A DNA stretch of 64,000 nucleotides from positions 620,001 to 684,000 of the forward strand of contig NZ_MASU01000013.1 in NCBI RefSeq assembly GCF_003202235.1, read 5' to 3'. The DNA comes from Prauserella flavalba. GTDB lineage: Bacteria; Actinomycetota; Actinomycetes; Mycobacteriales; Pseudonocardiaceae. Positions 43,282 to 61,621 of the stretch are shown here, piece by piece. Under the pieces are notes generated by a model. It was not told the origin of the DNA, did no database searches, and saw only the letters and a list, made by a program, of their open reading frames with translations. Position 1 is the stretch's first letter. Each line of letters opens with the position of its first letter. The position numbers were made by a program, and so were the translations under genes.

Positions 43282-43310
43282 TTGACGGGTGTTGTGGGTC
43301 ACTCTACTTT
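43282..43310 (+). promoter_or_regulatory. Promoter of the ribose-type ABC operon
   Basis: TTGACG (43282-43287) and TACTTT (43305-43310) are 17 bp apart, the best conventional -35/-10 pair in the window. A short leader with AGGAGG (43321-43326) precedes GTG 43340. A loose inverted repeat AGTTG-N11-CAACT (43256-43276) lies just upstream and could bind a regulator. Confidence 0.65.
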
Positions 43311-43339
43311 TGCATGTCACAGGAGGAAGTGGGGCTGAT

Positions 43340-44884: not shown

Positions 44885-45939
44885 CGAAGGCACTCGACAG
44901 ACCGCCGGTGCGCTCCGGCACCGCGAGCGCACTGCGCCGCTCGGTGCGGTTCGATGTGCGGTTGCTGGGCCTGGCCGGCGTGCTGGTCCTGCTGTGCGTC
45001 ATCGGGTTCATCACCCGGCCCGAGACGTTCCTCACCCAGGACAACATCTCCACGATGTTGCGGCTCGCCGCCGCGATCGGCGTGGTGAGCGTCGGCATGA
45101 CGTTCGTGATCATCGCGGGAGGTATCGACCTCTCGGTCGGCTCGATCGTCGCGCTCTCCAGCGTGTGGATGACGACGCTCGCGACGCAGTCGTACGGGCC
45201 GGTCGTGATGGTCCTGTGCGCGTTGCTGGTCGGCCTCGGCTGCGGCCTGGTCAACGGGGCGCTGGTCTCCTACGGCAAGGTCGTCCCGTTCATCACCACG
45301 CTCGCGATGATGGCCTCGGCCCGCGGTCTCGCGGAACGGCTGTCGGGCAGGCAGACGCAGGTGGTGACGGAGACCGGGTTCACCGACTTCTTCCGTGCCT
45401 CGTTCCTCGGCATTCCGGTGCTGGTGATCATGCTCGCGCTGGTGTTCGTGGTCGGCTGGATCGTGCTCAACCGCACCACGTTCGGCAGGCGGACCTACGC
45501 GATCGGCGGCAACGCCGAGGCGGCGCGCCTCTCCGGCATCAACGTGAAGCTGCACACGGCGCTCGTCTACGGCATCAGCGGCCTGTGCTGCGGCATCGCG
45601 GCGATCATGGTGGTCGCCCGTACCACCTCCGGTGCCTCCACCAACGGCTTGTTCTACGAGCTGGACGCGATCGCCGCGGTGGTCATCGGTGGCACGCTGC
45701 TCTCCGGCGGCCGCGGCAGCCTCATCGGCACCCTGATCGGCGTCCTGATCTTCACGGTGCTCAACAGCATCTTCACGCAGAACAACCTCGACACCGACAT
45801 CCAGAACATCGCCAAGGGCGCCATCATCGTCGGGGCCGTGCTCCTGCAGCACACGACGGCGAGGCGGCGCAAGCGAAAGCCCCCCGCTCAACCGAGTCCC
45901 GACCCGCAACCGACCAACACCAACGGGAGCCAGTCATGA
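44881..45939 (+). CDS. Sugar ABC transporter permease, RbsC type
   Basis: This 352-aa membrane protein has the RbsC/XylH pattern of eight to ten helices: VGMTFVIIAGGIDLSVGSIV, TTFGRRTYAIGGNAEAARLS (the ATPase-contact loop) and ELDAIAAVVIGGTLLSGGRG. Its ATG overlaps the ATPase stop (ATGA) and its stop overlaps the binding-protein start. The C-terminus is a short basic, proline-rich tail. Confidence 0.9.
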   Translation: MTKALDRPPVRSGTASALRRSVRFDVRLLGLAGVLVLLCVIGFITRPETFLTQDNISTMLRLAAAIGVVSVGMTFVIIAGGIDLSVGSIVALSSVWMTTLATQSYGPVVMVLCALLVGLGCGLVNGALVSYGKVVPFITTLAMMASARGLAERLSGRQTQVVTETGFTDFFRASFLGIPVLVIMLALVFVVGWIVLNRTTFGRRTYAIGGNAEAARLSGINVKLHTALVYGISGLCCGIAAIMVVARTTSGASTNGLFYELDAIAAVVIGGTLLSGGRGSLIGTLIGVLIFTVLNSIFTQNNLDTDIQNIAKGAIIVGAVLLQHTTARRRKRKPPAQPSPDPQPTNTNGSQS

Positions 45940-46991
45940 TCCAGACCAACTTAGCCCGACGCGGATTCCTCTTCGGCGCGGCCGGACTCGGCGCTGGCGC
46001 GGTGCTGGCCGGCTGCACGTCGAACGAACCGGAGCAGCAGAACAACCCGCAGCAGGAGAACCTCGCGCAGGGTGACAACGCCGAGCCGGGGCAGCCGGTG
46101 ACGATCGGCTTCTCCGCGCCCGCGGCCGACCACGGCTGGATGGCGGCGATGACGATCAACGCGAGATCCGCCGCCGAGCAGTTCTCCGACGTCACCCTCA
46201 ACGCCACGGAGGGCACCAACGACGTCAACCAGCAGATCGCGCAGGTCGAGTCGCTCATCAACGCCGGGGTCGACGTGCTGGTGATCCTGCCCTTCGACGG
46301 CAAGGCGCTGACACAGGTCGGCCGTCAGGCGATGGACGCCGGCATCCCCGTCGTCAACGTGGACCGGGTCTTCGACACGCCGCTCGCGTACCGCACGTGG
46401 ATCGGCGGCGACAACTACCGCATGGGCGTCAACGCCGGTAACTACATCGCCGAGCGGCTCCAGCGGGAGAACGTGAACAACCCCGTGATCGGCGAGGTCG
46501 CCGGCATCGACTCGCTGCCGCTGACGCAGGAACGCAGCCAGGGCTTCCGCGACGCGTTGCAGCGGCACGGCTTCAGCGTGGGCCCGCGCGTGTCGGCCGA
46601 GTTCACGCCGGAGTCCGGCGAGCGGCAGACGGCGAACCTGCTGCAGGGCGCGCAGACCCTGCACGCGCTGTGGAACCACGACGACGACCAGGGCGTCGGT
46701 GTGGTGGCCGCGATCGAGAACGCGGGCCGCAACGACTTCTTCATGGTCGGCGGCGCGGGTTCCACCAACATGATGAACCTGATCAAGGCCGACTCCGGCC
46801 CGGTCAAGGCGACGGTGCTCTACAGCCCGTCGATGGCGTCGTCGGCGATCGCGATGGCCCGCCTGCTCGGCCAGAACAAGGGCCTCGGCGACCTCGCCGA
46901 GCACGAGATCCCCTCCGAGCTCACGACGTACTCGGCCGTCGTCACGAGGGAGAACGTGGACAACTACATGGACGTCGGGTTCGACTCGTGA
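45936..46991 (+). CDS. Sugar-binding lipoprotein, RbsB type, with Tat-like signal
   Basis: This 351-aa protein has an ARRGFLFGAAG twin-arginine-type leader and lipobox VLAGC, giving a lipid-anchored binding protein that may be Tat-exported. After a Gln/Asn-rich linker comes a type I periplasmic-binding-protein fold: VTIGFSAPAADHGWMAAMTI, INAGVDVLVILPFDGKALTQ and GIPVVNVDRVF, as in ribose/inositol binders. Codon 6 is TTA (45951-45953), the second such codon in this operon. Confidence 0.88.
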   Translation: MIQTNLARRGFLFGAAGLGAGAVLAGCTSNEPEQQNNPQQENLAQGDNAEPGQPVTIGFSAPAADHGWMAAMTINARSAAEQFSDVTLNATEGTNDVNQQIAQVESLINAGVDVLVILPFDGKALTQVGRQAMDAGIPVVNVDRVFDTPLAYRTWIGGDNYRMGVNAGNYIAERLQRENVNNPVIGEVAGIDSLPLTQERSQGFRDALQRHGFSVGPRVSAEFTPESGERQTANLLQGAQTLHALWNHDDDQGVGVVAAIENAGRNDFFMVGGAGSTNMMNLIKADSGPVKATVLYSPSMASSAIAMARLLGQNKGLGDLAEHEIPSELTTYSAVVTRENVDNYMDVGFDS

Positions 46992-48136
46992 CGGATGGTG
47001 CACAGTCGCTCGGCATCGGCATGGTGGGGCACGCCTTCATGGGTGCCGTCCACTCTCACGCGTGGCGCAACGTCCACCGCTTCTTCGACGTCCCGCTGAG
47101 CCCACGCCTCGTGGTGCTCGGCGGGCGCGACGAGCAGCGGACCAAGGAGGCCGCCGCCCGGTTCGGCTTCGAGTCGGTGGACACCGACTGGCGCGCGATC
47201 ATCGAGCGGGAGGACGTCGACCTCGTCGACATCTGCACGCCCGGTGACACGCACGCCGACATCGCGATCGCCGCGCTGGAGGCGGGTAAGCACGTCCTGT
47301 GCGAGAAGCCGCTCGCCAACACCGTCGCCGAGGCCGAGCGCATGGCCGAGGCGGCTGCGCGCGCCGACGCGCGCGGCGTGCGCTCGATGGTGGCGTTCAA
47401 CTACCGCAGGGTGCCGGCGCTGTCGCTCGCGCGCAGGCTCGTCGCCGAGGGCAGGCTGGGCGAGCTACGGCACGTGCGCGCGGTGTACCTGCAGGACTGG
47501 CTCTCCGACGCCACGTCGCCCATGACGTGGCGGTTGCGCAAGGAGCAGGCCGGTTCCGGGTCGCTCGGCGACATCGGGGCGCACATCGTGGACGCGACGC
47601 AGTTCGTCACCGGTCAGGTGATCACCGGGGTCGCGGGCATGACGGAGACGTTCGTGCGCAACCGGCCGGGCGCGGGCGGGGCCGAGGAGGCCGTGACGGT
47701 CGACGACTGCGCGGTGTTCCACGGCAGTCTTTCCTCGGGTGCGGTGGCGACGTTCGAGGCCACGCGGTACGCCCTTGGCCGTAAGAACGCCATGCGCATC
47801 GAGGTCAACGGCTCGCGCGGCAGCCTGGCCTTCGACTTCGAGGCCATGAACGAGCTGTGGTTCTACGACGGCGACGAGCCGGGAGAGACCGCGGGCTTCC
47901 GCCGCATCATCGCCACCGAACCGGAGCACCCGTACGTGAGCGCGTGGTGGCCGCCCGGTCACGGCCTCGGCTACGAGCACACGTTCACCCACGAGATCGC
48001 CGACCTCCTGCGGGCGATCGGCGACGGACAGTCCCCCGAACCGGGTTTCGCCGACGGCCTGCGCGTGCAGCGCGTGCTGGAGGCGGTGGAGAGCAGCGCG
48101 GCCGACGCTTCGCGCTGGAAACCAGTGGAGGAATAG
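46988..48136 (+). CDS. Gfo/Idh/MocA-family oxidoreductase
   Basis: This 382-aa protein has a Rossmann domain opening LGIGMVGHAFMGAVHSHAWR, the motif ICTPGDTHADIAIAALEAGK and catalytic lysine in VLCEKPLAN, then a C-terminal domain with GSLGDIGAHIVDATQFVTG. It resembles sugar and inositol dehydrogenases of this family. GTG 46988 overlaps the binding-protein stop by 4 nt; it is the last gene of the ABC operon and probably oxidises the imported sugar. A 48-bp gap separates it from the ThuA-type gene. Confidence 0.86.
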   Translation: MTDGAQSLGIGMVGHAFMGAVHSHAWRNVHRFFDVPLSPRLVVLGGRDEQRTKEAAARFGFESVDTDWRAIIEREDVDLVDICTPGDTHADIAIAALEAGKHVLCEKPLANTVAEAERMAEAAARADARGVRSMVAFNYRRVPALSLARRLVAEGRLGELRHVRAVYLQDWLSDATSPMTWRLRKEQAGSGSLGDIGAHIVDATQFVTGQVITGVAGMTETFVRNRPGAGGAEEAVTVDDCAVFHGSLSSGAVATFEATRYALGRKNAMRIEVNGSRGSLAFDFEAMNELWFYDGDEPGETAGFRRIIATEPEHPYVSAWWPPGHGLGYEHTFTHEIADLLRAIGDGQSPEPGFADGLRVQRVLEAVESSAADASRWKPVEE

Positions 48137-48184: not shown

Positions 48185-51100
48185 GTGCGACGAAGCAGTA
48201 GTACCACGCAACGTAGACGATCTCCTCGGAATTGGTGGCGCTTCGGTGCCGCCGCATTGGCGTTCTGCACCGGTCTCGGCGGGTTCGCGTTCACCGCGAC
48301 CGCCGAGACCGGGCAACCCGGGACCCAGCACACCGCCAGCGTCCTGGTCTTCTCCAAGACCGCCGGCTTCCGGCACGACTCGATCCCCACGGGAATCGCC
48401 GCGATACAAGAACTGGGGGCTGCCGACGGCTTCACGGTCGAGGCAACCGAAGACGCAGCGGCGTTCACCGACGACAACCTCGCCCGCTTCGACGCGGTGG
48501 TGTGGCTGTCCACCACGGGCGACGTGCTGAACGACGAGCAGCAGGGCGCCTTCGAGCGCTACGTCGCGGGCGGCGGCGGGTACGTGGGCGTGCACGCCGC
48601 GTCCGACACCGAGTACGACTGGCCCTGGTACGGCGACCTCGTCGGGGCCTACTTCGATTCCCATCCGCAGATCCAGGAAGCCTCGATCGACGTCGAGGAC
48701 CACGAGCATCCCTCCACTGTGGACCTCCCGGGCCGGTGGACGCGTACCGACGAGTGGTACAACTATCGCGAGAACCCGAGGCAGGACGTCCACGTCCTGG
48801 CCACGCTGGACGAGTCCAGCTACGACCCGGGTTCCGGCGCGATGGGCGACGACCACCCGATCGCGTGGTGCCACGAGAACAGCGGCGGCCGGGCCTGGTA
48901 CACCGGCGGCGGCCACACCGTCGAGTCCTACGCCGAACCCGAGTTCCGGCAGCACCTGCTCGGGGGCATCCGCTATGCCACGGGCGAGGCCGAGGGCAAC
49001 TGCGCGACCGAGCCCGGCGGCGAGACCCCGGTCGACGAGGACTTCGACCAGATCACGCTCGCGCAGGGCGAGGCGGTGACCGGCGAGCCGATCGCGCTCG
49101 CGGTGCTGCCCGACCGCCGCGTACTGCACACTTCGCGCGACGGCCGCGTCTTCCTGACCACGCCCGAGGCGACCACCACGGTGGCCGCGACGATCCCCGT
49201 CTACAACCACGACGAGGACGGCCTCCAGGGCATCGCGGTGGACCCGGACTTCGAGAACAACAGCTGGGTGTACCTCTACTACGCGCCGCCGCTGGACACC
49301 CCGCCCGGTGATGCGCCGGAGAACGGCACCGCGGCGGACTTCGAACCGTTCCAGGGCTACAACCAGCTGTCGCGTTACAAGCTGACCCCCGAGGGAACCC
49401 TCGACCCGGCCAGCGAACAGCGGATCCTCCAGGTGCCGGCCGACCGCGGCATCTGCTGTCACGCGGGTGGCGAGATCGACTTCGACGCCGACGGCAACCT
49501 GCTGCTGTCCACGGGGGACGACTCGAACCCGTTCGCTTCCGACGGCTACACGCCGATCGACGAACGGGCCGACCGCAACCCGGTGTTCGACGCACAGCGC
49601 ACCTCGGCGAACACCAACGATCTGCGCGGCAAGATCCTGCGCATCAAGGTCGGCGAGGACGGAAGCTACACCGTTCCCGAGGGCAACCTGTTCGCTCCCG
49701 GCACGGAGGGCACGAAGCCGGAGATCTACGCGATGGGCTTCCGCAACCCGTTCCGGTTCGCTGTCGACAAGGAGACGGGTTGGATCCACCTGGGCGACTA
49801 CGGCCCCGACGCCGGTTCGGCCAACCCCGGGCGTGGTCCCGGCGGCACGGTCGAGTTCAACCTGATCAAGGAGCCCGGCAACTACGGCTGGCCGTACTGC
49901 GTCGGCGACAACCAGCCGTTCGTCGACTACGACTTCGCCACGGGCACCTCCGGCGAGCCGTTCGACTGCGCGGCGCCGAAGAACGAGAGCCCGCACAACA
50001 CCGGGCTCGTCGACCTGCCGCCGGTACAGCCCGCGTGGATTCCCTACGACGGCGGTTCGGTGCCCGAGTTCGGCACAGGCGGCGAGTCGCCGATGGGCGG
50101 CCCGACGTACCACTTCGACCCCGAGCTCGACGTCGTGACGAAGTTCCCCGAGTTCTACGACGGCAAGAACTTCGCCTACGAGTGGGACCGAGGCTGGATC
50201 AAGACGATCGAGGTCGGCGACAGCGGCGAGCGCGGCGCGATCGAACCGTTCTTCGACTCGATGACGCTGACCAGGCCGATGAACATCGAGTTCGGCCCCG
50301 ATGGCTCGCTGTACGTGCTCGACTACGGCAGCGGGTACTTCGGTGGCGCGGCCGACTCGGCGGTGTACCGGATCGACTACACCAAGGGCAACCGGACCCC
50401 GCAGGTGAACCTGACGTCCGACAGGACCTCGGGGCAGGCCCCACTCGAGGTGAGCTTCGACCCGGCGGGCACCAGCGACCCCGACGGCGGCGAGCTCACC
50501 TATGCGTGGGACTTCGACGGTGACGGCAGCACCGACTCCACCGAGGCCGGCCCGGTGACGCACACCTACACCGAGCCCGGCCAGTACACCGCGCATCTCG
50601 CGGTGACCGACGAGACCGGGCTGACCGGTGCGGCGAGCGTGGTGGTGACCGTGGGCAACACGGCGCCGACCGTGACGCTCGAGGCCCCGGTGAACGGCGG
50701 GGTCTTCGGCTTCGGCGACACGGTGCCGTTCAAGGTCACCGTCACCGACCCCGAGGACGGGCCGGTCGACTGCTCGCGCGTGACCGTGGAGTACATCCTC
50801 GGCCACGACAACCACGGCCACCCGCTGTCGCGGGCCACGGGCTGCGAGGGCGTGCTCGAGACCCCGGCCGACGAGGGCCACGGGCTCGACGCGGACGTCT
50901 TCGGTGTCATCAACGCGAGCTACACCGACAACGGTGCGGGCGAGGTGCCCGCGCTGCCCGGCTCGGACGAGGTCGTGCTCCAGCCCAAGCTGAAGCAGGC
51001 CGAGTTCTTCACCGAGCACAACGGCATCCAGGTGGTCGACGCCGCGGGAGCCAGCGGTGGCAAACGGGTCGGCTACATCGAGGACGGTGACTGGATCTCC

Positions 51101-52771
51101 TTCGACCCGGTGAACCTCACCGGCATCGAGGCGATCGGCTACCGCGTGTCCTCGGGTGGCGCGGGCGGCACGATCGAGGTGCGCTCCGGTGCTCCGGACG
51201 GCGAGCTGCTGCAGACCGTCCCGGTGAGCAACACCGGGGGCTTCGACAACTACGCCGACATCGCGCCGGTTCCGGTGACCGACCCCGGTGGCACCACGCC
51301 GCTGTACCTGGTGTTCAAGGGAGCCGGTGTCGGCGGACTGTTCGATGTGGACAACATCCAGTTCACGGGCGCGGGCGTGGCCGAGCCGGGCACCCCGCCG
51401 ACGTGTGAGCCCGCGCAGCCGGACGAGGGCTACTCGATGCTCTTCGACGGCACCGCGGCGAGCATGGAGGCGTGGAACCAGGCCGGTCCCGGTTCGTTCG
51501 AGCTGCAGTCCGACTGCACGATCAAGTCGGTCGGCGGCATGGGCCTGTGGTGGCACGAGAAGGAGTACGCCGCCTACAGCCTGAAAATGGACTGGAAGAT
51601 GGCCGGTGACGACAACTCCGGTGTCTTCGTCGGGTTCCCGGACCCGGGCAACGACCCGTGGGTCGCCGTGAACCAGGGCTACGAGATCCAGATCGACGCC
51701 ACCGACGCCGACGACCGGACCACGGGTGCGATCTACACGTTCCAGTCCGCCGACCTCGCCGCGCGCGACGAGGCGCTCAACCCGCCGGGGGAGTGGAACT
51801 CCTACGAGATCGTGGTGCAGGGCCAGACCATCAAGGTCTACCTCAACGGGGTCCTCATCAACGACTTCGTGAGCACCGACCCCGCCAGGGACCTGGCCCA
51901 GGGCTTCATCGGGATCCAGAACCACGGCAACGGCGACGACGTGTTCTACCGCGACATCCAGATCAAGGAGCTGGACGTCACGGCGCCGGTGACCGAGGCG
52001 GCGTTCGCCGAGCCGGGCTCAGCGGGCTGGCACCGGGGTGAGGTCGCGGTCACCCTCTCGGCGACCGATGCCGGTTCCGGGGTCGAGCGCATCGAGTGGA
52101 GCCTCGACGGCGGCGAGTGGACGACGTACTCCGAACCCGTGGTGGTCTCCGGCGACGGCGAGCACACGCTGCTGTACCGGGCCGTGGACGCGGCGGGCAA
52201 CGTCGAGTCGGACAAGGCCGCGTCGATCAGCATCGACGGGACCAAGCCCACCGTGATGGTGGCCGGTGTCGCCGACGGCCGGGTGTACGGCGACGCCACC
52301 GACCTGGTGGTGTCGTGGCTGGCGGGTGACGACACGTCGGGTGTGGCGAGCCAGTCGGCCACGCTGGACGGACAGCCGGTGACCTCGGGCGCCACGGTGC
52401 CGCTGCACCAGCTGCCGCTCGGAGTGCACTCGCTGAAGGTGACGGCCACCGACACGGCAGGCAACACCGCGGAGCAGTCGGTGACGTTCGCGTCGACGAC
52501 CTCGCTGCGCGACATCGGCCAGCTCGTCGAGCGGTTCCGGGCGAGCAACCGGCTGTCGCTGACGGACTACGTCGCCCTGTCGTCCCAGCTGTCCAAGGCC
52601 CGCAAGGCCGAGGGAGGCGGCAACGACGTCAAGGCGATCAAGGAGCTACGAAAGTTCGTCGACCGAGCGGACTCGGTGCCCGACAATGGAGTTCGCGACA
52701 CGCTGGTGCGCGACGCCGAGGCAGTGATCGGGCACATCGAGGGTGGCGCCCCACTCGCCACCGCGAGTTAG
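48185..52771 (+). CDS. Giant secreted ThuA / PQQ-propeller / PKD / CBM6-like / DUF1080 protein
   Basis: This 1528-aa exported protein has a basic leader and hydrophobic segment (FGAAALAFCTGLGGFAFTATA). Domains in order: ThuA-like, about 53-280; glucose/sorbosone-dehydrogenase-like propeller, about 288-735 (GLQGIAVDPDFENNSWVYLY, EIYAMGFRNPFRF); PKD, 736-825 (TYAWDFDGDGSTDS); CBM6-like, about 936-1061 (KQAEFFTEHNGIQVVD); DUF1080/3-keto-disaccharide-hydrolase-like, about 1080-1261 (MGLWWHEKEYAAY, WNSYEIVVQGQTIKVYLNG); OmpL47/Ig-like repeats, about 1265-1440; a FIMAH-like C-terminus, about 1440-1528. All point to extracellular processing of (keto-)glycosides. GTG 48185 follows AGAGGAAAGG. Confidence 0.85.
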   Translation: MRRSSSTTQRRRSPRNWWRFGAAALAFCTGLGGFAFTATAETGQPGTQHTASVLVFSKTAGFRHDSIPTGIAAIQELGAADGFTVEATEDAAAFTDDNLARFDAVVWLSTTGDVLNDEQQGAFERYVAGGGGYVGVHAASDTEYDWPWYGDLVGAYFDSHPQIQEASIDVEDHEHPSTVDLPGRWTRTDEWYNYRENPRQDVHVLATLDESSYDPGSGAMGDDHPIAWCHENSGGRAWYTGGGHTVESYAEPEFRQHLLGGIRYATGEAEGNCATEPGGETPVDEDFDQITLAQGEAVTGEPIALAVLPDRRVLHTSRDGRVFLTTPEATTTVAATIPVYNHDEDGLQGIAVDPDFENNSWVYLYYAPPLDTPPGDAPENGTAADFEPFQGYNQLSRYKLTPEGTLDPASEQRILQVPADRGICCHAGGEIDFDADGNLLLSTGDDSNPFASDGYTPIDERADRNPVFDAQRTSANTNDLRGKILRIKVGEDGSYTVPEGNLFAPGTEGTKPEIYAMGFRNPFRFAVDKETGWIHLGDYGPDAGSANPGRGPGGTVEFNLIKEPGNYGWPYCVGDNQPFVDYDFATGTSGEPFDCAAPKNESPHNTGLVDLPPVQPAWIPYDGGSVPEFGTGGESPMGGPTYHFDPELDVVTKFPEFYDGKNFAYEWDRGWIKTIEVGDSGERGAIEPFFDSMTLTRPMNIEFGPDGSLYVLDYGSGYFGGAADSAVYRIDYTKGNRTPQVNLTSDRTSGQAPLEVSFDPAGTSDPDGGELTYAWDFDGDGSTDSTEAGPVTHTYTEPGQYTAHLAVTDETGLTGAASVVVTVGNTAPTVTLEAPVNGGVFGFGDTVPFKVTVTDPEDGPVDCSRVTVEYILGHDNHGHPLSRATGCEGVLETPADEGHGLDADVFGVINASYTDNGAGEVPALPGSDEVVLQPKLKQAEFFTEHNGIQVVDAAGASGGKRVGYIEDGDWISFDPVNLTGIEAIGYRVSSGGAGGTIEVRSGAPDGELLQTVPVSNTGGFDNYADIAPVPVTDPGGTTPLYLVFKGAGVGGLFDVDNIQFTGAGVAEPGTPPTCEPAQPDEGYSMLFDGTAASMEAWNQAGPGSFELQSDCTIKSVGGMGLWWHEKEYAAYSLKMDWKMAGDDNSGVFVGFPDPGNDPWVAVNQGYEIQIDATDADDRTTGAIYTFQSADLAARDEALNPPGEWNSYEIVVQGQTIKVYLNGVLINDFVSTDPARDLAQGFIGIQNHGNGDDVFYRDIQIKELDVTAPVTEAAFAEPGSAGWHRGEVAVTLSATDAGSGVERIEWSLDGGEWTTYSEPVVVSGDGEHTLLYRAVDAAGNVESDKAASISIDGTKPTVMVAGVADGRVYGDATDLVVSWLAGDDTSGVASQSATLDGQPVTSGATVPLHQLPLGVHSLKVTATDTAGNTAEQSVTFASTTSLRDIGQLVERFRASNRLSLTDYVALSSQLSKARKAEGGGNDVKAIKELRKFVDRADSVPDNGVRDTLVRDAEAVIGHIEGGAPLATAS

Positions 52772-52867: not shown

Positions 52868-54016
52868 ATGGAACCCACAGGGTTGTGGTTGATCGGTGCA
52901 CGCGGTTCGGTCGCCACCACGGCGATCGCGGGACTGCTCGCACTGCGGGCCAGGGTGGTGGAACCGACAGGCTGCGTCAGCGCGCTGCCCCGGTTCGCCG
53001 ACCTGGGCCTTCCCGGCTGGGACGAGCTTCGCGTCGGCGGGCACGACATCGCCGAGCTCGCGCTGGACAAGCGTGCGGAGCTGCTGACCGAAGCCGGGGT
53101 GATCCCGCACCGCGTGTTCGAGGCGGTCCGCGCCGGCCTGTCCGAAGTGGATTGTGAACTGCGGCCGGGCTACCACCCGGCCACCAACCCGGGTTCCCAG
53201 GCCGACGCCGCGCGGCGGCTCGCCGACGACATCGGCGAGTTCGCCGCGCGCAACGGGCTCGCCCGCGTCGTGGTGGTCAACGTGTCGTCGACGGAGCCGG
53301 TGTTCCCGGCTCTGCCGGAGCACGGCACGCTGGCCGCCCTCGAGGCGGCGATGGCGGTGCCCGGCCGCACGGTGCTGCCGCCGAGCTCGGTGGCAGCGTA
53401 CGCGGCGCTGCGGGCGGGCTGCCCGTTCGTCGACTTCACGCCGTCGACCGGCATTCGCCTGCCCGCGCTGGAGGAACTGGCGGCGGCGCAACGGCTGCCG
53501 TACGCGGGTTCCGACGGCAAGACCGGCGAGACGCTCGTGCGGAGCACGCTCGCGCCGATGTTCGCGGCGAGGGCGTTGCACGTGCGGTCGTGGTCGGGGA
53601 CGAACCTGCTCGGCGGCGGCGACGGGCTCACGCTCGCCGACGCCGAGCACGCGGGCAGCAAGCTCGCGTCGAAGGGGCGGGGGCTGGCGACGCTGCTGGG
53701 CGGCGACGTCACCTCGCCGCTGCACATCGACAACGTGCCCGATCTCGGTGAGCAGAAGATCGCGTGGGACCACGTGTCCTTCGAGGGGTTTCTCGGGGCG
53801 CGGATGAGCCTGCAGTTCACGTGGAGCGGCTACGACTCGGCGCTGGCGGCGCCGCTGGTGCTGGACCTGGCGCGGTTCACGGCGCTGGCGCACCGCCGCG
53901 GCGAGTCCGGCCCGCTCGGCTGTCTGGGCTTCTTCTTCAAGGACCCGATGGGCACCGAGGAGCACCGCCTCGCCGAGCAGTTCGCCGAGTTGACGACGTG
54001 GGCGGAGGCGCGATGA
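52868..54016 (+). CDS. Inositol-3-phosphate synthase-like sugar-phosphate cyclase
   Basis: This 382-aa protein has an NAD Rossmann start (GLWLIGARGSVATTAIAG) and the inositol-1-phosphate synthase catalytic region: GSDGKTGETLVRSTLAPMF, WSGTNLLGGGDG, KIAWDHVSFEGFLG and APLVLDLARFTAL. The fold would cyclise glucose-6-phosphate to inositol-3-phosphate, but this divergent type may make another cyclitol. It heads a run of genes joined by 1- to 4-nt overlaps, in which a sugar-phosphate cyclase of a different family (EboD) is the usual partner. ATG 52868 is chosen by the ribosome-binding site. Confidence 0.82.
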   Translation: MEPTGLWLIGARGSVATTAIAGLLALRARVVEPTGCVSALPRFADLGLPGWDELRVGGHDIAELALDKRAELLTEAGVIPHRVFEAVRAGLSEVDCELRPGYHPATNPGSQADAARRLADDIGEFAARNGLARVVVVNVSSTEPVFPALPEHGTLAALEAAMAVPGRTVLPPSSVAAYAALRAGCPFVDFTPSTGIRLPALEELAAAQRLPYAGSDGKTGETLVRSTLAPMFAARALHVRSWSGTNLLGGGDGLTLADAEHAGSKLASKGRGLATLLGGDVTSPLHIDNVPDLGEQKIAWDHVSFEGFLGARMSLQFTWSGYDSALAAPLVLDLARFTALAHRRGESGPLGCLGFFFKDPMGTEEHRLAEQFAELTTWAEAR

Positions 54017-54948
54017 CCGCGGTGACCACTCCGTTCGCGGCGGTTCCACCTTCCCCCAAGGCCACCTTTGTTGCGTTGAGCGCACCCAAGGTGGCCTTGG
54101 GGGCCGTCGCCGAGCTGGTGCGGGCGCCGGCGGCCTTGACAGTGCTGGGGGACACGATCGCGGGGGCGGCGGCTTCGGGGTCACCGTTGCGGGGCAGGCG
54201 CTGGACCCTGCCACTCGCGTCGGTGGCCCTCTACTGGGCGGGGATGGCACTCAACGACTGGGCCGACCGGGACCTCGACGCCGTCGAGCGTCCCGAGCGG
54301 CCGATTCCCTCCGGTCGGCTGAGTGCGGGCGCGGCCCTGGCCACTGGGGGTGCGCTGACCGCTGCCGGGCTGGGAATCGCCTGGTTCGGCGGCGGTCAGC
54401 GGTCCCTTCGCGTCGCCCTGCCGCTCGCGGGCGCGATCTGGGCGTACGACACCAAGCTGAAAGGTACGGCTGCGGGACCCTGCGGCATGGCGGCGTGCCG
54501 GGCGCTGGACGTGCTGCTGGGCGCGGGCGGCCGGTGGCGGGACGCCGCCCCGGCCGCCGTCGCGCTCGGGGTCCACACCCACGGCGTCACCGCGCTGTCG
54601 GCGGGCGAGGTCCACGGCGGGTCCGCCCGCACGGCCCGCACCGCGCTGGCTGGCACCGCCATCGCCACCGCGCTCACCGTGGCCGGGCGCGGGGGGAGCC
54701 GGCGTGACCGCCTGGCCGCGCTCGGCTTCGCGAGCGGGTACGCGGCCACGGTCGGCAGGGCGCAGTACGACGCCGCCGGGCAGCCGTCCGCGCCACGGGT
54801 GCGCGCGGCCACGATGGCGGGCATCCACGGCATGGTTCCCCTGCAGGCGGGTCTCGCCGCCCGGTACGGCGCGGCCAAGGTCGCCGCCGCGCTGGCGACG
54901 GCGTTGCCGCTCGCCAGGCGCCTCGCGAGGAAGGTGAGCCCCACGTGA
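54013..54948 (+). CDS. eboC: UbiA-family prenyltransferase (EboC-like), with in-frame repeat
   Basis: This 311-aa membrane protein has the UbiA fold with about eight helices. The first aspartate-rich motif is NDWADRDLDAVERPERPIPS (N81, D82 onward); the second is AYDTKLKG (D146). It would attach a prenyl chain to an acceptor, possibly the cyclitol made by the preceding enzyme. Residues 14-31 ([17 protein letters not shown]) are encoded by a type B palindromic repeat (54053-54103) inserted in frame; the conserved part starts after it (AELVRAPAALTVLGDTIAG). ATG 54013 overlaps the previous stop by 4 nt; a GTG downstream of the repeat could be an alternative start. Confidence 0.82.
   Translation: MTAVTTPFAAVPPSPKATFVALSAPKVALGAVAELVRAPAALTVLGDTIAGAAASGSPLRGRRWTLPLASVALYWAGMALNDWADRDLDAVERPERPIPSGRLSAGAALATGGALTAAGLGIAWFGGGQRSLRVALPLAGAIWAYDTKLKGTAAGPCGMAACRALDVLLGAGGRWRDAAPAAVALGVHTHGVTALSAGEVHGGSARTARTALAGTAIATALTVAGRGGSRRDRLAALGFASGYAATVGRAQYDAAGQPSAPRVRAATMAGIHGMVPLQAGLAARYGAAKVAAALATALPLARRLARKVSPT
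54053..54103. repeat. Type B palindromic repeat inside the UbiA coding region
   Basis: This 51-bp element (exactly 17 codons) has 23-bp arms that differ at two positions and a TTGAG loop. It matches the intergenic type B copies at 31611 and 61627. Its length keeps the reading frame open. Confidence 0.88.
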
Positions 54949-56339
54949 GCACCCTGCGCTTCGGCTACGGCACCAACGGCTTCGCCAGCCACCGGCTCAC
55001 CGACGCACTCGCCGTCATCGCCGACCTCGGCTACAGCGGTGTCGCGCTGACGCTGGACCACGACCACCTCGACCCCTTCGCCAGGGATGTCGCCGAGCAG
55101 ACGCGCCGCGTGCGCGACCGGCTCGGCGAGCTGGGGCTCGGTGTGGTCGTGGAGACCGGTGCGCGGTACCTGCTCGACCCGTGGCACAAGCACCAGCCCA
55201 CGCTGGTGTCGGCGGATCCCGCGCCGCGCATCGATTTCCTCCGCCGCGCCACGCGCATCGCGGAGGACCTCGGCGCCGAGTGCGTGTCGTTCTGGTCCGG
55301 TGTCCAGCCGTCTGACGTGGACGTGGAGACGGCGTGGCTGCGGATGCGCGACGGCGTCGCCGCCGTGCTGGAGACCTCGGGCGTGCGGCTCGCACTCGAG
55401 CCCGAGCCGGGGCACTTCGTGCAGCACCTGGAGCAGGCGCTGCGCCTGCGCACCGAACTGGGCTCACCGGAGCTGCTCGGCATCACCCTCGACGTCGGGC
55501 ACTGCGTGGCCGTGGAGCCGAAGAACGCGGCCGAGTGCGTGCGTGAGGCCGGGGAGCTGCTGTTCAACGTGCAGCTCGACGACATGCGGCCCGGCGTGCA
55601 CGAGCACCTCGAGTTCGGCGAGGGAGAGCTCGACCTCACCGGCACGCTGGCCGCGCTCACCGAGATCGGCTACCGGGGCCTGGCCGCGGTGGAGCTGCCC
55701 CGGCACAGCCACGCGGCACCGGACGTCGCCCGGCGAAGCATCACGGCGCTCAGGGCCGCCGACTGGCTTGCCGGCGCGGAACGGTCCGTGCGCGCCGATC
55801 CCGTGAAGATCCGCACGCTGTTCCCCGCCGCGGGGCGCAAGGCGGGGAGGTCACCGCTGGACGCCCGCGGCCTCGTGCACGGCACCACCGACGACCACGC
55901 GAGGGCCCGCCTGCTGGCCGCGCTCGCCGATGCCCTTCGGGACGGGGAACTGGCCAAGGAGGTCGCCGAGCTGTACCGCTACGGCGACGGCGCCGAACGC
56001 AGGGGCGTGCTGCGCGGGCTGCACCTGCTGCCCGGCGACGCCGAGGTGATCGACACGGGCCTCCGGCTGGTCGAGGATGCCTTGCGCGCCAACGACATCG
56101 GACTCGTCGCCGCCGCGCTCGGACCGTTCGCGCAGCGGCACCTCGACGCGCACACCTGGCGCCACGGCGTGCTCAAGTGCCTGTTCACCGGCGTACCGGT
56201 CGCCGCGGTGAGCGGGCTGGCGCAGCGCGCCGACGCCGAGCTGGTGCGCATGGTCACCGACTACGTGGCCGAACGGAAGGCCGCGGGCCGCGACGTTCCG
56301 CCGGATGCCGATCTCGTGCTCCAGGAGGCAGGACAATGA
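54945..56339 (+). CDS. eboA: TIM-barrel isomerase fused to EboA domain
   Basis: This 464-aa protein joins two parts. Residues 1-265 are a xylose-isomerase-like TIM barrel (FGYGTNGFASHRLTDALAVI, VRLALEPEPGHFVQHLEQAL, LGITLDVGHCVAVEPKNAAE, LAAVELPRHSHAAPD). Residues of about 290-464 are EboA-like helical repeats (LYRYGDGAERRGVLRGL, VEDALRANDIGLVAAALGPF, HTWRHGVLKCLFTGVPVAAV). EboA is part of the ebo cluster, which in cyanobacteria is required to move scytonemin precursors to the periplasm. The fusion hints that the barrel's product is handed to the EboA module. GTG 54945 overlaps the ubiA stop. Confidence 0.83.
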   Translation: MSTLRFGYGTNGFASHRLTDALAVIADLGYSGVALTLDHDHLDPFARDVAEQTRRVRDRLGELGLGVVVETGARYLLDPWHKHQPTLVSADPAPRIDFLRRATRIAEDLGAECVSFWSGVQPSDVDVETAWLRMRDGVAAVLETSGVRLALEPEPGHFVQHLEQALRLRTELGSPELLGITLDVGHCVAVEPKNAAECVREAGELLFNVQLDDMRPGVHEHLEFGEGELDLTGTLAALTEIGYRGLAAVELPRHSHAAPDVARRSITALRAADWLAGAERSVRADPVKIRTLFPAAGRKAGRSPLDARGLVHGTTDDHARARLLAALADALRDGELAKEVAELYRYGDGAERRGVLRGLHLLPGDAEVIDTGLRLVEDALRANDIGLVAAALGPFAQRHLDAHTWRHGVLKCLFTGVPVAAVSGLAQRADAELVRMVTDYVAERKAAGRDVPPDADLVLQEAGQ

Positions 56340-57199
56340 GGATCTTCGACCCGCACATCCACATGACCTCGCGCACCACCACCGACTACGAGCAGATGTA
56401 CGAGGCCGGGGTGCGGGCGCTCGTCGAACCCGCGTTCTGGCTCGGCCAGCCGCGTACCAACGTCGGCTCGTTCACCGACTACTTCGACGGTCTCATCGGC
56501 TGGGAGCGGTTCCGTGCCTCGCAGTTTGGCATCCGCCACCACTGCACGATCGCGCTGAACCCCAAGGAGGCCAACGATCCCCGCTGCGTCGACGTGCTCG
56601 ACGTGCTGCCGCGCTACCTCGCCAAGGACGGCGTGGTCGCCGTCGGGGAGGTCGGCTACGACTCGATGACCGAGGCCGAGGAGAAGGCGTTCGCCCACCA
56701 GCTGACACTGGCGATCGAGCATGAGCTGCCGGTGCTGGTGCACACCCCGCACCGCGACAAGCTCGCCGGGACGAGACGCACGCTCGACGTGGTGCGCGAG
56801 TCCGGGATCGCGCCCGAGCTCGTGGTCGTGGATCACCTCAACGAGCTGACCGTCGGCCTCGTCGCCGACGCGGGCTGCTGGATGGGTTTCTCGATCTACC
56901 CGGACACCAAGATGGACGAGCACCGCATGGTGACGATCCTCAGGGAACACGGCACGGACCGGATGCTCGTGAACTCCGCGGCCGACTGGGGGCGCTCCGA
57001 CCCGCTCAAGACCCTGCGCACGGGCGAGGCGATGCTCGCGGCGGGCTTCACTGAGTCCGATGTGGACACAGTGCTGTGGCGGAACCCCGTCGAGTTCTAC
57101 GGGCAGAGCGGCAAGCTCATGCTCGACCCGCTGGAGACCGGTGCTCCGACCGGCGAGACGTTCGAGGGAAACTCGGTGCTGCGTGGGGCGAGGCAGTGA
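56336..57199 (+). CDS. eboB: TatD-family metal-dependent hydrolase EboB
   Basis: This 287-aa amidohydrolase-fold protein has an N-terminal HxH metal motif (RIFDPHIHMTSRTT), GVVAVGEVGYDSM with a bridging glutamate, LVHTPHRDK and DHLNE with further histidines, and a final NSAADWGRSDPL aspartate. The pattern is that of the EboB branch of the TatD family. The substrate is unknown. The ATG overlaps the eboA stop (ATGA) and its TGA overlaps the next ATG by one base (TGATG), so translation is tightly coupled. Confidence 0.84.
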   Translation: MRIFDPHIHMTSRTTTDYEQMYEAGVRALVEPAFWLGQPRTNVGSFTDYFDGLIGWERFRASQFGIRHHCTIALNPKEANDPRCVDVLDVLPRYLAKDGVVAVGEVGYDSMTEAEEKAFAHQLTLAIEHELPVLVHTPHRDKLAGTRRTLDVVRESGIAPELVVVDHLNELTVGLVADAGCWMGFSIYPDTKMDEHRMVTILREHGTDRMLVNSAADWGRSDPLKTLRTGEAMLAAGFTESDVDTVLWRNPVEFYGQSGKLMLDPLETGAPTGETFEGNSVLRGARQ

Positions 57200-58296
57200 T
57201 GCTGTCCTACTGCACCAACGTGCATCCCGCCGAGGACCTCGACGGGATACTCGCGCAGCTCGACACCTACGCGGTGCCGGTGCGCGAGAGGCTGGGCCAG
57301 GACCGGCTCGGCGTGGGGCTGTGGCTCGCCGCGGGCGTCGCCTCGGGCCTGGCCGCCGACCCGGCGGCCAGGCGCAGGCTCGCGGCGGAGCTTTCCGCGC
57401 GGGGCCTGGCCGTGCAGACGCTGAACGCCTTCCCCTACGGCGGTTTCCACGCCGACGTGGTCAAACACTCCGTCTACCTGCCGACCTGGACCGACCCGCG
57501 CCGCCTTCGCTACACCCTCGACTGCGTCACCGTGCTCGCCGACCTGCTGCCCGGCGACGCCGCGTACGGCAGCATATCGACGCTGCCGCTCGCGTGGCGG
57601 GAGCCGTGGACGTCCTCGCACGACGTGCGCGCCGGCATCGCGTTCGAGGAGGTGACGCGCGTCCTGCGCTCCGCGCTGGCCCGGCACGAGCAGCCGATCA
57701 GGCTCGCGATCGAGCCGGAGCCGGGCTGCGTGCTCGACACCGTGAGCGACGCCGTCGCGTGGCTCGCCGGGCGCGTCGATCCGGAGTACATCGGGCTGTG
57801 CCTGGACACGTGCCACCTCGCGGTGTCGTTCGCCGACCCCGCGAAGACGGTCGCGGACATCCGGGCCGCTGGCCTGTCGGTGGTCAAGGTCCAGGCGTCG
57901 GCCGCGCTGCACGTCGAGCACCCCGGGGCACCGGAGGCCGTCGCCGCGCTGAGGGCGTTCGCCGAACCCCGCTACCTGCACCAGGTGCGCGAGCTGCTGC
58001 CGACGGGCGAGGTGCTCGCCGCCGACGACCTGCCTGCCGCGCTGGAGACCCTGCCCGCGCGGGGGCCGTGGCGCGTGCACTTCCACGTGCCGCTGCACGC
58101 CACCCCGGCCGCGCCCCTGGAGTCGACCACCGGGGTGCTCACCGGGGCGCTCGGCGCGCTGGCCGCGCAGGGCCCGCTGCCGCACGTCGAGGTGGAGACC
58201 TACACCTGGACCGTCCTGCCCGAGAGCGGCCGTCAGGAACTCGCCGCCGGTATCGCCGACGAGCTGCGCTGGGCGCGCATGGAGGTGCACGCATGA
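57199..58296 (+). CDS. eboE: Metabolite traffic protein EboE (TIM barrel)
   Basis: This 365-aa xylose-isomerase-like protein is of the EboE type: [77 protein letters not shown] and [13 protein letters not shown] carry the predicted metal ligands. In the ebo cluster EboE is one of the conserved core proteins. It probably acts on, or carries, the same small metabolite as EboA and EboB. Confidence 0.84.
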
Positions 58297-59693
58297 AGAA
58301 GCTCGTGGTGATCGACGTCGTCGGCCTGACGCAGAAGCTGTTGCGCCACATGCCCAACCTCACCGCGCTGTCCACACGCGGCTGGCAGGCCGAACTGGGC
58401 ACGGTGCTGCCCGCCGTGACCTGCAGCGCGCAGTCGACGTTCCTCACCGGGCGGATGCCCGCCGAGCACGGGATCGTCGGCAACGGCTGGTACTTCCGCG
58501 ACCTCGGCGAGATCTACCTGTGGCGCCAGCACAACAGGCTCGTGCAGGGCGAGAAGCTGTGGGAGACCGCGCGGGCCGCCTCCCCCGGCTATGTGGCCGC
58601 CAACGTGTGCTGGTGGTACGCGATGGGCGCCACGACCGACTTCACCGTCACCCCGCGCCCGATCTACCACGCCGACGGCCGCAAGTCGCCCGACTGCTAT
58701 GCGCGGCCGCCGCAGCTGCACGACGCGCTCACCGACGAGCTGGGTCCGTTCCCGCTGTTCCAGTACTGGGGTCCGACGGCGTCGATCGCGTCGACGCGGT
58801 GGATCGTCGCGGCGTCGCGGCGGCTGCTGCGCACCGACGGCCCCGACCTGTTGCTCGTGTACGTTCCGCACCTGGATTACGACCTGCAGCGCTTCGGGCC
58901 CGACTCGCCGCAGGCCGTCGCCGCCGCGCGGGCGGTGGACGCCGAGCTCGGGCCGCTGCTGGCCGACGCGCAGGCGGCCGGGGCCGCCGTGGTGGCGCTG
59001 TCCGAGTACGGCATCACGGCCGCCGACACGCCGGTCGACGTCAACCGGGCGCTGCGCAGGGAAGGGCTGCTGGAGGTCTACACGCAGGACGGCATGGAGT
59101 ACCTCGACCCGTGGACCTCGCGCGCGTTCGCCGTGGCCGACCACCAGGTCGCGCACGTCTACGTCGGCGACGAGCAGGACCTGCCGCGCGTGCGCGAGAT
59201 CCTGACCGCGCTGCCCGGTGTCGACGAGGTGCTCGACCGCGAGGCACAGGCCCGCTACGGCCTCGACCACGAGCGCGCGGGCGAGCTGGTGGCGGTGGCC
59301 GAACCCGACGCGTGGTTCACCTACTACTACTGGCTCGACGACGAGAGGAAGCCCGACTTCGCCAAAGGCGTCGAGATCCACCGGAAACCCGGCTACGACC
59401 CGGCCGAGCTGTTCTTCGACCCCGACGACCCGCTGGTGAAGGCCAAGGCAGGGCTGAACCTCGTGCGCAAGAAGGTGGGCCTGCGCTACGCCATGAACGT
59501 GGTGCCGACCGATCCGCGGTTCGTGCGCGGCTCACACGGCAGGCTGCCCGCCTCGCCCGCCGACGGCCCCGTGCTCGTGTGCTCGGAGCCGGTCATTCCG
59601 TCCACTGTGGAGTCATCCGGTCGTGTCAAGGCCACCGAGGTCCGCGACCTGCTGCTGCAACTGCAAGGAATCCGAGAGGGAGCTTACCGATGA
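58293..59693 (+). CDS. eboF: Alkaline phosphatase-superfamily protein EboF
   Basis: This 466-aa protein is of the nucleotide-pyrophosphatase/phosphodiesterase branch of the alkaline phosphatase superfamily. D8 (VVIDVVG) and a threonine nucleophile, T43 in [14 protein letters not shown], are in place, followed by [27 protein letters not shown] and [10 protein letters not shown]. The metal motif usually SDHG is SEYG here (S237-G240), so one site may be altered. It could remove a phosphate or diester from the pathway intermediate. It overlaps both neighbours by 4 nt. Confidence 0.83.
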
Positions 59694-60697
59694 GCCGACC
59701 GGTTACGCTGTTCACCGGCCAGTGGGCCGACCTGCCCTTCGAGGAGGTCTGCCGGCTCGCGTCGAGCTGGGGCTACGACGGGCTGGAGATCGCCTGCTCC
59801 GGGGACCATTTCGAGGTGGACCGCGCGCTGTCCGAAGAGGACTACGTGGCTGGCAGGCACAAGCTGCTCGAATCCTACGGCCTGAAGGTGTGGGCGATCT
59901 CCAACCACCTGGTCGGCCAGGCCGTGTGCGACGACCCGATCGACGACCGGCACCGCAACATCCTGCCCGCCCGCATCTGGGGTGACGGTGAGCCCGAGGG
60001 CGTGCGGCAGCGGGCCGCCGGCGAGCTGGCCGACACGGCGCGCGCCGCGGCGAAACTCGGCGTGGACACGGTGATCGGCTTCACCGGCTCGAAGATCTGG
60101 AAGTACGTCGCGATGTTCCCTCCCGTGTCGCAGGAGGTGATCGACGACGGCTACGCCGACTTTGCCGCGCGGTGGAACCCGATCCTCGACGTCTTCGACG
60201 AGGTGGGTGTGCGCTTCGCCCACGAGGTGCACCCGAGCGAGATCGCCTACGACTACTGGACCACCAAGCGTGCGCTGGAGGCCGTGAACCACCGGCCCGC
60301 GTTCGGCCTCAACTGGGACCCGTCGCACTTCGTGTGGCAGGACCTCGACCCGGTCGGCTTCATCCTCGACTTCGCCGACCGCATCTACCACGTCGACTGC
60401 AAGGACACGAAGAAGCGCTTCGACGGGCGCAACGGCAGGCTCGGTTCCCACCTGGCGTGGGCCGATCCGCGCCGCGGCTGGGACTTCGTGTCCACGGGGC
60501 ACGGCGACGTCGACTGGGAGAGCGCGTTCCGCGCGCTGAACTCCATCGGCTACACCGGTCCGATCTCGGTGGAGTGGGAGGACGCCGGCATGGACCGGCT
60601 GCGGGGTGCCGCCGAGGCCGTGAACTACATCCGCAATCTCAACTTCGACAAGCCCGCGGCGGCGTTCGACGCCGCGTTCTCCACTGATCGTTCCTGA
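59690..60697 (+). CDS. TIM-barrel sugar phosphate isomerase/epimerase
   Basis: This 335-aa xylose-isomerase-like barrel has [92 protein letters not shown] and [11 protein letters not shown], a full set of metal-ligand residues. It resembles the isomerases that accompany Gfo/Idh enzymes in sugar catabolism. Its ATG overlaps the eboF stop by 4 nt, so it belongs to the same operon and ties the ebo-type cluster to sugar metabolism. Confidence 0.83.
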
Positions 60698-60733: not shown

Positions 60734-61621
60734 ATGAGCGATTCACCGAAGTCTCGCCTGTCTCGCAGGGCCATGCTGCGCACCACGGCGGGCGCCGCGG
60801 CCGTCGCCGGCATCGCGGCGGCCACCGCGGGTACCGCGCAGGCGGGCTGGGGCCACGGCGGCGGCCACGGCCACGGGGGCAGGCGGCTGCCGAAGGAGCG
60901 GATCGCCGTCCAGCTCTACACGCTGCGCAACGCGCTGGAGGCCGACCTCGAGGGCACGCTCGGGGCGCTGTCCGACATCGGCTACCGCAACGTCGAGCTG
61001 GCCGGAACCTACGGGCGGAGCGCGAAGGAGTTCCGCGGGCTGCTCGACAGGTACCGGCTGAGGGCGGTCTCGGCGCACGTCGACTTCCGGGGCGCGGACG
61101 TCGACCAGCTCATCGACGACGCGAGGATCCTCGGCTACCACGTGGCCGACTGCGCGTACGCCAACTTCGGGACGATCGCCGAATGGGCCTCCTTCGCGCA
61201 GGACCTGGAGGCGGCGGGCAAGGCGTTCCGCAAGGCCGGGATCGCCTACGGCTACCACAACCACGCGCACGAGTTCCAGGCGATCGACGGCGTCCGGCCG
61301 TTCGACGTCATCGCGCGCACCACCACCCGCCGCAACATCCACTTCGAGTACGACCTCTATTGGCTCGTCGTAGCGGGTGCCGACCCGGTGCGGGAGTTCT
61401 ACCGGCAGTTCGGCCGGGTGCGGCAGTTCCACGTGAAGGACCGCGCCGACGACGGCAGCTTCGCCGACCTCGGCACGGGCAACATCGACTTCGCGCGGAT
61501 CTTCCGTGAGACGTGGGCGGGCGGCGCGGTGCTGCACTACATCGTCGAGCACGACCAGCCCACCGACCCGCTCAAGACCGCCGAAGTGGGCTACGACTAC
61601 CTGCGCGACCTCCGCTTCTGA
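60734..61621 (+). CDS. Tat-exported TIM-barrel sugar isomerase/epimerase (paralogue)
   Basis: This 295-aa protein has a twin-arginine signal (SRRAMLRTTAGAAAVAGIAA), then a His/Gly-rich stretch (WGHGGGHGHGG) that could bind metal. The barrel is a clear paralogue of the protein at 30755: IAVQLYTLRNAL, YGYHNHAHEF, FEYDLYWLVVAG, FHVKDRADDGSFADLGTGNI and VEHDQPTDPLKT. It acts outside the cell. It starts 36 nt after the preceding isomerase and has AAGGGA upstream of ATG 60734. Confidence 0.83.
   Translation: MSDSPKSRLSRRAMLRTTAGAAAVAGIAAATAGTAQAGWGHGGGHGHGGRRLPKERIAVQLYTLRNALEADLEGTLGALSDIGYRNVELAGTYGRSAKEFRGLLDRYRLRAVSAHVDFRGADVDQLIDDARILGYHVADCAYANFGTIAEWASFAQDLEAAGKAFRKAGIAYGYHNHAHEFQAIDGVRPFDVIARTTTRRNIHFEYDLYWLVVAGADPVREFYRQFGRVRQFHVKDRADDGSFADLGTGNIDFARIFRETWAGGAVLHYIVEHDQPTDPLKTAEVGYDYLRDLRF

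Follow-up and report, generated by a model that had tools for sequence, protein, structure and literature searches.

Which cyclase feeds an ebo pathway in a bacterium in whose genome assembly no EboD is found? The question is raised by a stretch of 64,000 nucleotides from Prauserella flavalba (NCBI RefSeq assembly GCF_003202235.1, contig NZ_MASU01000013.1, positions 620,001 to 684,000), hereafter the window, in which seven genes run on the + strand from position 52868 to 60697 with successive overlaps of 4, 4, 4, 1, 4, and 4 nucleotides, so that the coordinates and the 1- to 4-nucleotide overlaps given in a preliminary description of this DNA hold. The ebo cluster eboABCDEF is known from eustigmatophyte plastids, cyanobacteria, and Bacteroidetes (PMC5133447, PMC6282210), and in Nostoc, according to the text of PMC6282210, it is needed for an export or periplasmic step of a metabolite, the phenotypes concerning scytonemin export and nematode repellence. 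The window resembles this canonical cluster in that EboA, EboB, EboE, EboF, and a UbiA protein of the EboC superfamily are encoded in one operon, but it differs in having no EboD, in carrying a cyclase of the inositol-phosphate synthase (MIPS/INO1) type together with a TIM barrel, in its SCO3242-type prenyltransferase, and in the fusion of the TIM barrel to EboA. We lean towards the interpretation that this is an INO1-type ebo variant which makes a prenylated, inositol-derived cyclitol in place of the EboD-derived product.

The cyclase exceeds the cut-offs of both PF07994 (172.7 bits, cut-off 25) and PF01658 (101.6 bits, cut-off 27), and EboD, a dehydroquinate (DHQ)-synthase-like enzyme, was found neither in the cluster nor in the rest of the genome assembly (8.09 Mb, 39 contigs), which upholds the earlier placement of a MIPS-type cyclase in the EboD slot. 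The sole PF01761 match of the assembly is AroB according to TIGR01357 (353.2 bits, cut-off 305), and it reaches 175.8 bits against NF004852 (cut-off 333), a model on which EboD proteins score 571 bits (Azospirillum) and 564 bits (genome G381); a separate eboD gene elsewhere in the genome, a possibility raised in the preliminary description, was thus set aside. PF01658 has two matches in the assembly, the window cyclase and a housekeeping INO1 located elsewhere, the latter being of the mycothiol type (TIGR03450, 682.5 bits, cut-off 638), while the window cyclase stays under that cut-off with 23 bits.

By sequence, the closest solved relative of the window cyclase is the MIPS of Archaeoglobus fulgidus (1u1i, 1.6e-65), and chains of this enzyme, at 36-37% identity, are also the PDB structures closest to its structure model (pLDDT 94.2), whereas Ari2 (6k96), a five-membered-cyclitol-phosphate synthase, is a far weaker match (1.5e-9). 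Catalytic positions were taken from the alignment with A. fulgidus MIPS, for which PDB titles mention N255, K278, and K367, and the roles of the tested MIPS residues are in part presumed here. D216, N246, D252, K265, K269, K297, D323, and K358 are identical in all 23 INO1 proteins compared, and T219 in 22 of them. Fold, NAD domain, and tested catalytic residues are common to the window cyclase and A. fulgidus MIPS, whereas the modest identity just given, a GG loop weighed below, the fixed place in an ebo operon, and the presence of a separate housekeeping INO1 set the window cyclase apart. Since the tested catalytic residues are kept, glucose 6-phosphate would be a likelier substrate than sedoheptulose 7-phosphate. 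In an INO1 tree of 50 rows, which is midpoint rooted and in which the long branch of A. fulgidus cannot be placed with certainty, the 24 actinobacterial rows form one clade (100/99), with haloarchaeal INO1 as its sister group (99/93); the next branches are Gemmatirosa and A. fulgidus MIPS, and ordinary and YcaO-linked bacterial INO1 stand apart (100/100).

The ebo character of the run, as described earlier, was confirmed by EboA and EboE matches over the profile cut-offs and by the identity of EboB and EboF to proteins of the Azospirillum EboD-type cluster (Table 1), the window proteins matching no NCBIfam model for EboB or EboF. The second gene, labelled UbiA (EboC) in the preliminary description, does encode a member of the UbiA superfamily but not EboC proper: it stays at 144.9 bits against the EboC equivalog NF035940 (cut-off 250) and passes the cut-off of the SCO3242 family, and it thus belongs to a sister subfamily of EboC. 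EboC-type and SCO3242-type prenyltransferases share the motif NDxxDxxxD (16 of 16) as well as a nearly invariant YDxxxK and Glu, which suggests that the two kinds may use similar acceptors. A similar gene order that we had presumed for SCO3237 to SCO3241 of Streptomyces coelicolor found no support in a search and is not used here. SCO3242 and SCO3243 of the same organism are listed in PMC3610822 as a transferase and a myo-inositol phosphate synthase within the CDA genes, which is the same pair as in the window by family name (NF045897), the comparison being one of table entries.

The third gene encodes a fusion, a type of TIM-EboA protein already in print for actinobacteria (PMC5133447). According to the structure model and Foldseek, its TIM half resembles ketose 3-epimerases, while the EboA half is all-helical in the model and the Foldseek matches listed are dominated by the TIM half; no enzyme equivalog was reached by the profiles for either the TIM barrel or EboE, and the former is described here as ketose-3-epimerase-like only. 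Glu152, Asp183, and Glu250 of the TIM barrel are invariant in 15 of 15 fused proteins and, by analogy with the family, may bind metal. Judged by length (430 amino acids or more), a fusion to EboA is present in 54 of 131 TIM reading frames, including one with an internal stop (L154). The seventh gene, earlier called a further isomerase, indeed encodes a TIM barrel (Iso2), the function of which can be refined: its best functionally named match is 2-hydroxy-3-keto-glucal hydratase (8ro4, 144.2 bits, 6.2e-41), next to 592.7 bits to SCO6571 (2zds), a structure with no named function.

The association of INO1 with ebo genes extends well beyond P. flavalba. In a sample of 396 genomes of the phylum, EboE was over the cut-off in 18 (19 at E<=0.001), and 17 of these scored at least 558 bits with the window-type INO1 profile, ahead of a genome with 331.3 bits; the 18th (G381) carries an EboD-type cluster. 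Of 249 genomes of the same family, 114 have EboE over the cut-off (117 at E<=0.001) and 116 have INO1 (E<=1e-120), including all 114 with EboE; a Fisher p-value for this co-occurrence takes no account of relatedness and does not serve as proof here. The two genomes with INO1 only are G567, which has EboE fragments, and G601, which has no EboE match and is 83% complete; neither gene is over threshold in the remaining 133, two of which (G590 and G610) contain EboE fragments. INO1 and EboE lie within 10 kb of each other in 106 of the 114 pairs, within 27 kb in 4, and on different contigs in 4. In genomes G550, G534, G576, and G624, and also in G632 (contig C3, locus L114), some 25-27 kb lie between INO1 and the remaining ebo genes within a single contig, and the front end can thus be separated from them.

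We fetched 135 loci (19 from the phylum sample, 36 from the family sample, and 80 from named genomes), of which 110, or 108 distinct ones because L088/L126 and L104/L146 each occur in two samples, are complete for INO1, the prenyltransferase (C), EboB, EboE, and EboF. All of these have the TIM barrel and EboA, and none of the 108 has EboD nearby. The 25 incomplete loci comprise four on contig pieces of <12 kb, one EboD locus, one broken locus (L049), eight with INO1 alone, three with the core and no nearby INO1, and eight lacking one to four genes in the fetched stretch. Of 117 rows (the window plus 116 loci), 95 show the order INO1-C-TIM-A-B-E-F, among them named Prauserella, Saccharomonospora, Amycolatopsis, Saccharothrix, Streptomyces, Actinopolyspora, Arthrobacter, Terrabacter, and others. 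An assembly quirk is ruled out by this recurrence in many named genera, and a chance neighbour by the census of EboE with INO1 and the counts of complete clusters. The swap from EboD to INO1 is stable, and the arrangement is widespread in actinobacteria. Two Streptomyces plasmids show particular settings. In S. camelliae (L025, 4185-16411), an NHL gene of the ScyD/ScyE family stands directly before the INO1-ebo operon, and an aromatic prenyltransferase and a multicopper oxidase follow it, which recalls the scytonemin setting; in Streptomyces sp. NBC_00376 (L030, 1-12519), the operon and a gene for a non-ribosomal peptide synthetase are about 4.6 kb apart.

The preliminary description had the cyclase alone fill the EboD place; the cyclase swap stands, but a single-gene swap is ruled out, since the TIM barrel and the prenyltransferase subfamily change too. 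EboD is replaced by a cassette of INO1, a ketose-3-epimerase-like TIM barrel, and an SCO3242-type prenyltransferase. No window-type TIM barrel was found in five EboD-type clusters (Azospirillum, Deinococcus, Ketogulonicigenium, Salipiger, and G381), of which that of Ketogulonicigenium has an Iso3-like gene. In a cluster of Gemmatirosa (Gemmatimonadota), INO1 (45%), the TIM barrel (52%), and C, which groups with the INO1 type (92/91, moderate), are of the INO1 kind, whereas EboB groups with the EboD type of Deinococcus (100/99) and EboE and EboF also score best with EboD-type clusters; its 25 kb yielded neither EboD nor EboA. C and INO1 thus move together.

A reduced cluster occurs on three of five haloarchaeal plasmid matches (Natronococcus, Halocatena, and Halobaculum), bringing together TatD/EboB (43-48% identity to the window), INO1 (43-47%), and EboF (37-42%) with a UbiA protein and two TIM barrels of a branch of their own. 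In the two cases tested, this UbiA protein falls between EboC (178-197 bits) and SCO3242 (161-165 bits), under both cut-offs. The two Halomarina matches have INO1 without the rest, and in Haloferax volcanii the EboE model gave a match below the cut-off. Beside the INO1 cluster of the Natronococcus plasmid (L210, 14568-17231), a GSDH-type protein has a plastocyanin/azurin-like copper domain in addition. The TIM family of the window-type clusters (49-54%) further turns up in eight loci that combine MocA with an INO1 of a second branch, and directly beside INO1 in L222. The eight INO1-MocA-TIM loci (L213, L214, L215, L220, L221, L223, L224, and L225) constitute a second INO1 cluster: INO1, MocA, and TIM were seen in L214 (Methylobacterium) and five actinobacterial loci, and YcaO and PIG-L deacetylase genes were seen in addition in L213 (Roseomonas) and L215 (Hymenobacter). 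For 12 further INO1 genes (eight from the phylum, two from Bacteroidota, and two haloarchaeal), the TIM family was not found in the fetched stretches.

Table 1. Features of the P. flavalba locus, with positions in the window and supporting matches
Feature	Positions	Strand	Evidence
Sugar ABC transporter ATPase (extended locus)	43289..44884	+	PF00005 175.9 bits, two stretches
Sugar ABC permease	44881..45939	+	PF02653 144.9 bits; 4-nucleotide overlap with the ATPase gene
Sugar-binding, lipoprotein-like substrate-binding protein	45936..46991	+	PF13407 145 bits; leader judged by eye
Gfo/Idh/MocA oxidoreductase	46988..48136	+	GFO_IDH_MocA profile; PDB matches 4h3v (536.9 bits), 6a3f (279 bits), 5ya8 (230.1 bits)
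Multidomain protein: ThuA, GSDH beta-propeller, PKD, CBM6, 3-keto-disaccharide hydrolase, FIMAH	48185..52771	+	Pfam
MIPS/INO1-type cyclase, in the EboD place	52868..54016	+	PF07994, PF01658; 1u1i 1.6e-65; structure model
UbiA-superfamily prenyltransferase, SCO3242 family, EboC sister	54013..54948	+	PF01040 57.2 bits (cut-off 34.2); NF045897 374.9 bits (cut-off 260)
TIM-EboA fusion: ketose-3-epimerase-like TIM (N-terminal) and EboA domain (C-terminal, residues 316-458)	54945..56339	+	PF01261 124 bits; NF035938 165.2 bits (cut-off 50); structure model; Foldseek
EboB, TatD-like metal-dependent hydrolase	56336..57199	+	TatD PF01026 52.9 bits (cut-off 27); 60% identity to Azospirillum EboB
EboE	57199..58296	+	NF035939 433 bits (cut-off 250)
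EboF, type I phosphodiesterase-like	58293..59693	+	Phosphodiest PF01663 219.4 bits (cut-off 23); 53% identity to Azospirillum EboF
Iso2, TIM barrel, relative of 2-hydroxy-3-keto-glucal hydratase	59690..60697	+	2zds 592.7 bits; 8ro4 144.2 bits
Iso3, IolE-like TIM barrel with twin-arginine leader (by eye)	60734..61621	+	PF01261 44 bits; IolE model 52.1 bits (under cut-off 290)

The genes preceding the seven-gene run point to sugar and 3-keto-glycoside metabolism (Table 1). The Gfo/Idh/MocA enzyme is related to levoglucosan and scyllo-inositol/L-glucose dehydrogenases (6a3f is a levoglucosan dehydrogenase by its PDB title, and the best match, 4h3v, has no named function). The multidomain protein, the GSDH part of which matches quinoprotein glucose dehydrogenases, has a signal-like N terminus as judged by eye and is probably secreted. 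A second GSDH-domain coding stretch is present in the window at about 28413-29198, and the whole genome contains 9 GSDH and 2 3-keto hydrolase matches as background. At least one of Iso2, MocA, ThuA, GSDH, and the 3-keto hydrolase was found near 86 of the 108 distinct complete clusters, the GSDH part near 76, Iso2 near 55, and the ABC ATPase near 35, all of which are lower bounds since the fetched stretches differ in reach. Among the matches listed, Iso2 occurs in at least 104 of the 114 same-family genomes with EboE (107 with three more rows), in 92 of the 104 within 30 kb, and 39 same-family genomes have Iso2 with EboE not over the cut-off. Iso3 is likewise a recurrent neighbour of INO1-ebo clusters among the fetched loci. 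A scan for promoters and terminators gave no more signals than shuffled sequence. As described in the texts of PMC7676230, PMC10066097, and PMC10628242, the levoglucosan/3-keto-glycoside pathway (LgdA-LgdB1-LgdB2-LgdC) resembles the window in its ABC transporter, Gfo/Idh/MocA enzyme, and hydratase-like TIM barrel, whereas the window adds the ThuA-GSDH-3-keto-hydrolase protein and has the INO1-ebo operon in the middle.

From the observed gene content, linkage, and residues, we infer the product, its function, and each enzymatic step as follows. The cyclase would convert glucose 6-phosphate to an inositol phosphate, the stereochemistry or oxidation state of which could be changed by the TIM barrel, alone or together with a dehydrogenase, for which the linked Gfo/Idh/MocA enzyme is a candidate. 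The SCO3242/EboC-type enzyme would then join the cyclitol to an isoprenyl diphosphate at the membrane, so that prenylation and membrane transfer of the cyclitol are predicted; EboF and EboB may remove phosphate or another group, and EboA and EboE would act as in other ebo operons. The adjoining sugar-import or 3-keto-glycoside genes could supply glucose and an induction signal.

Several observations weigh against this proposal. The loop after the catalytic Asn reads GG in the window and in 53 of 53 loci found via EboE, the count being restricted to these because the 80 named loci (L126-L205) were fetched by a pattern containing GG, while 10 other INO1 proteins of the alignment have Asn at this place, so that the substrate could differ. 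The prenyltransferase of an ebo cluster described in PMC9235831, Ubi-297, farnesylated an aromatic acceptor in vitro rather than a cyclitol. The linkage has gaps as well: 14 of 130 window-type INO1 loci have no TIM barrel in the stretch, three of them on short contigs; INO1 stands without C, A, B, E, and F within 10 kb at L129, L144, L147-L151, and L180; three clusters (L032, L095, and L114) lack a nearby INO1; and 22 of the 108 distinct clusters lack the 3-keto neighbours. EboA and EboE were not recognised in the haloarchaeal clusters, and the EboB tree has long branches that meet, as the tool warned. As to the individual loci, L032 is a second copy (C-TIM-A-B-E-F) in genome G128, the other copy of which has INO1. 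In L148 (6921-19943, Micromonospora phaseoli), L149, and L150, a window-type INO1 has none of the ebo genes within 10 kb, and that of L148 has genes for aminotransferase, carrier, AMP-binding, and acyl-CoA dehydrogenase proteins around it in what looks like a secondary-metabolite cluster.

The GG loop next to the catalytic Asn is also the starting point of a serious, though in our judgment improbable, alternative, in which the cyclase is a re-specialised MIPS acting on a different sugar phosphate (a heptose, or one giving a five-membered ring as with Ari2) and EboD and INO1 converge on the same end product. That Ari2 has changed the product of the fold and that EboC and SCO3242 enzymes share acceptor-side motifs fit with it, but the tested MIPS catalytic set is kept and a true MIPS, not Ari2, is the closest solved relative by both sequence and fold. 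DHQ-synthase-like enzymes lose phosphate and MIPS retains it, so the products of the two cyclases would differ at that point. It is distinctly unlikely that the operon is mainly catabolic, with INO1, the TIM barrel, the hydratase, MocA, and the 3-keto hydrolase degrading a glycoside or cyclitol and UbiA in a side role. The linkage to the sugar ABC transporter, MocA, the GSDH/ThuA/3-keto-disaccharide hydrolase protein, and the hydratase-like Iso2 would favour such a role, but MIPS serves anabolism, the 22 clusters without 3-keto genes retain the seven-gene core, and in the two Streptomyces plasmids this core lies near non-ribosomal peptide synthetase or ScyE-like genes. Moreover, the published four-enzyme 3-keto route to glucose has no prenyltransferase, the string "prenyl" occurring 0 times in the text of PMC7676230. 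Least probable by far is a duplicate INO1 that makes ordinary inositol phosphate for phosphoinositides or mycothiol and sits beside ebo by history: its catalytic residues are those of ordinary MIPS, but the genome has its own mycothiol-type INO1, the co-occurrence with EboE is strict (114 of 114), and the ebo-linked proteins form a distinct clade.

Returning to the prenylated inositol derivative that we favour, its wider form is one that we put forward rather tentatively and hold as a whole to be doubtful. The ebo pathway would have exchangeable front ends (EboD or INO1 plus TIM), each with its own prenyltransferase and a shared EboB/EboF machinery, and the INO1 version would span actinobacteria, Gemmatimonadota, and haloarchaea. 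Its inositol-derived prenylated product, the ring of which may be dehydrated to an enol or a quinol-like form, would take part in oxidative chemistry outside the membrane together with secreted beta-propeller proteins that resemble oxidoreductases; these partners are of the GSDH type in the window, combine GSDH with a plastocyanin-like copper domain in Natronococcus, and belong to the ScyE type in one Streptomyces and in cyanobacteria.

In the open-access PMC literature, we found no paper joining ebo genes with an inositol-phosphate synthase, haloarchaea included. The main texts of PMC5133447, PMC6282210, and PMC9235831 never use the word "inositol", a count that leaves figures and supplements aside, and Figure 3 of PMC9235831, which draws two Saccharomonospora clusters, may include the INO1 gene. 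The INO1 front end gives a testable substrate (glucose 6-phosphate, labelled inositol) in actinobacterial hosts that are easily grown. The INO1-type clusters suggest that a single pathway is supplied by either of two unrelated cyclases and that this pathway is linked to 3-keto-sugar metabolism. Given the inositol front end and the frequent sugar-processing neighbours, the ebo product of these clusters is probably made from inositol.

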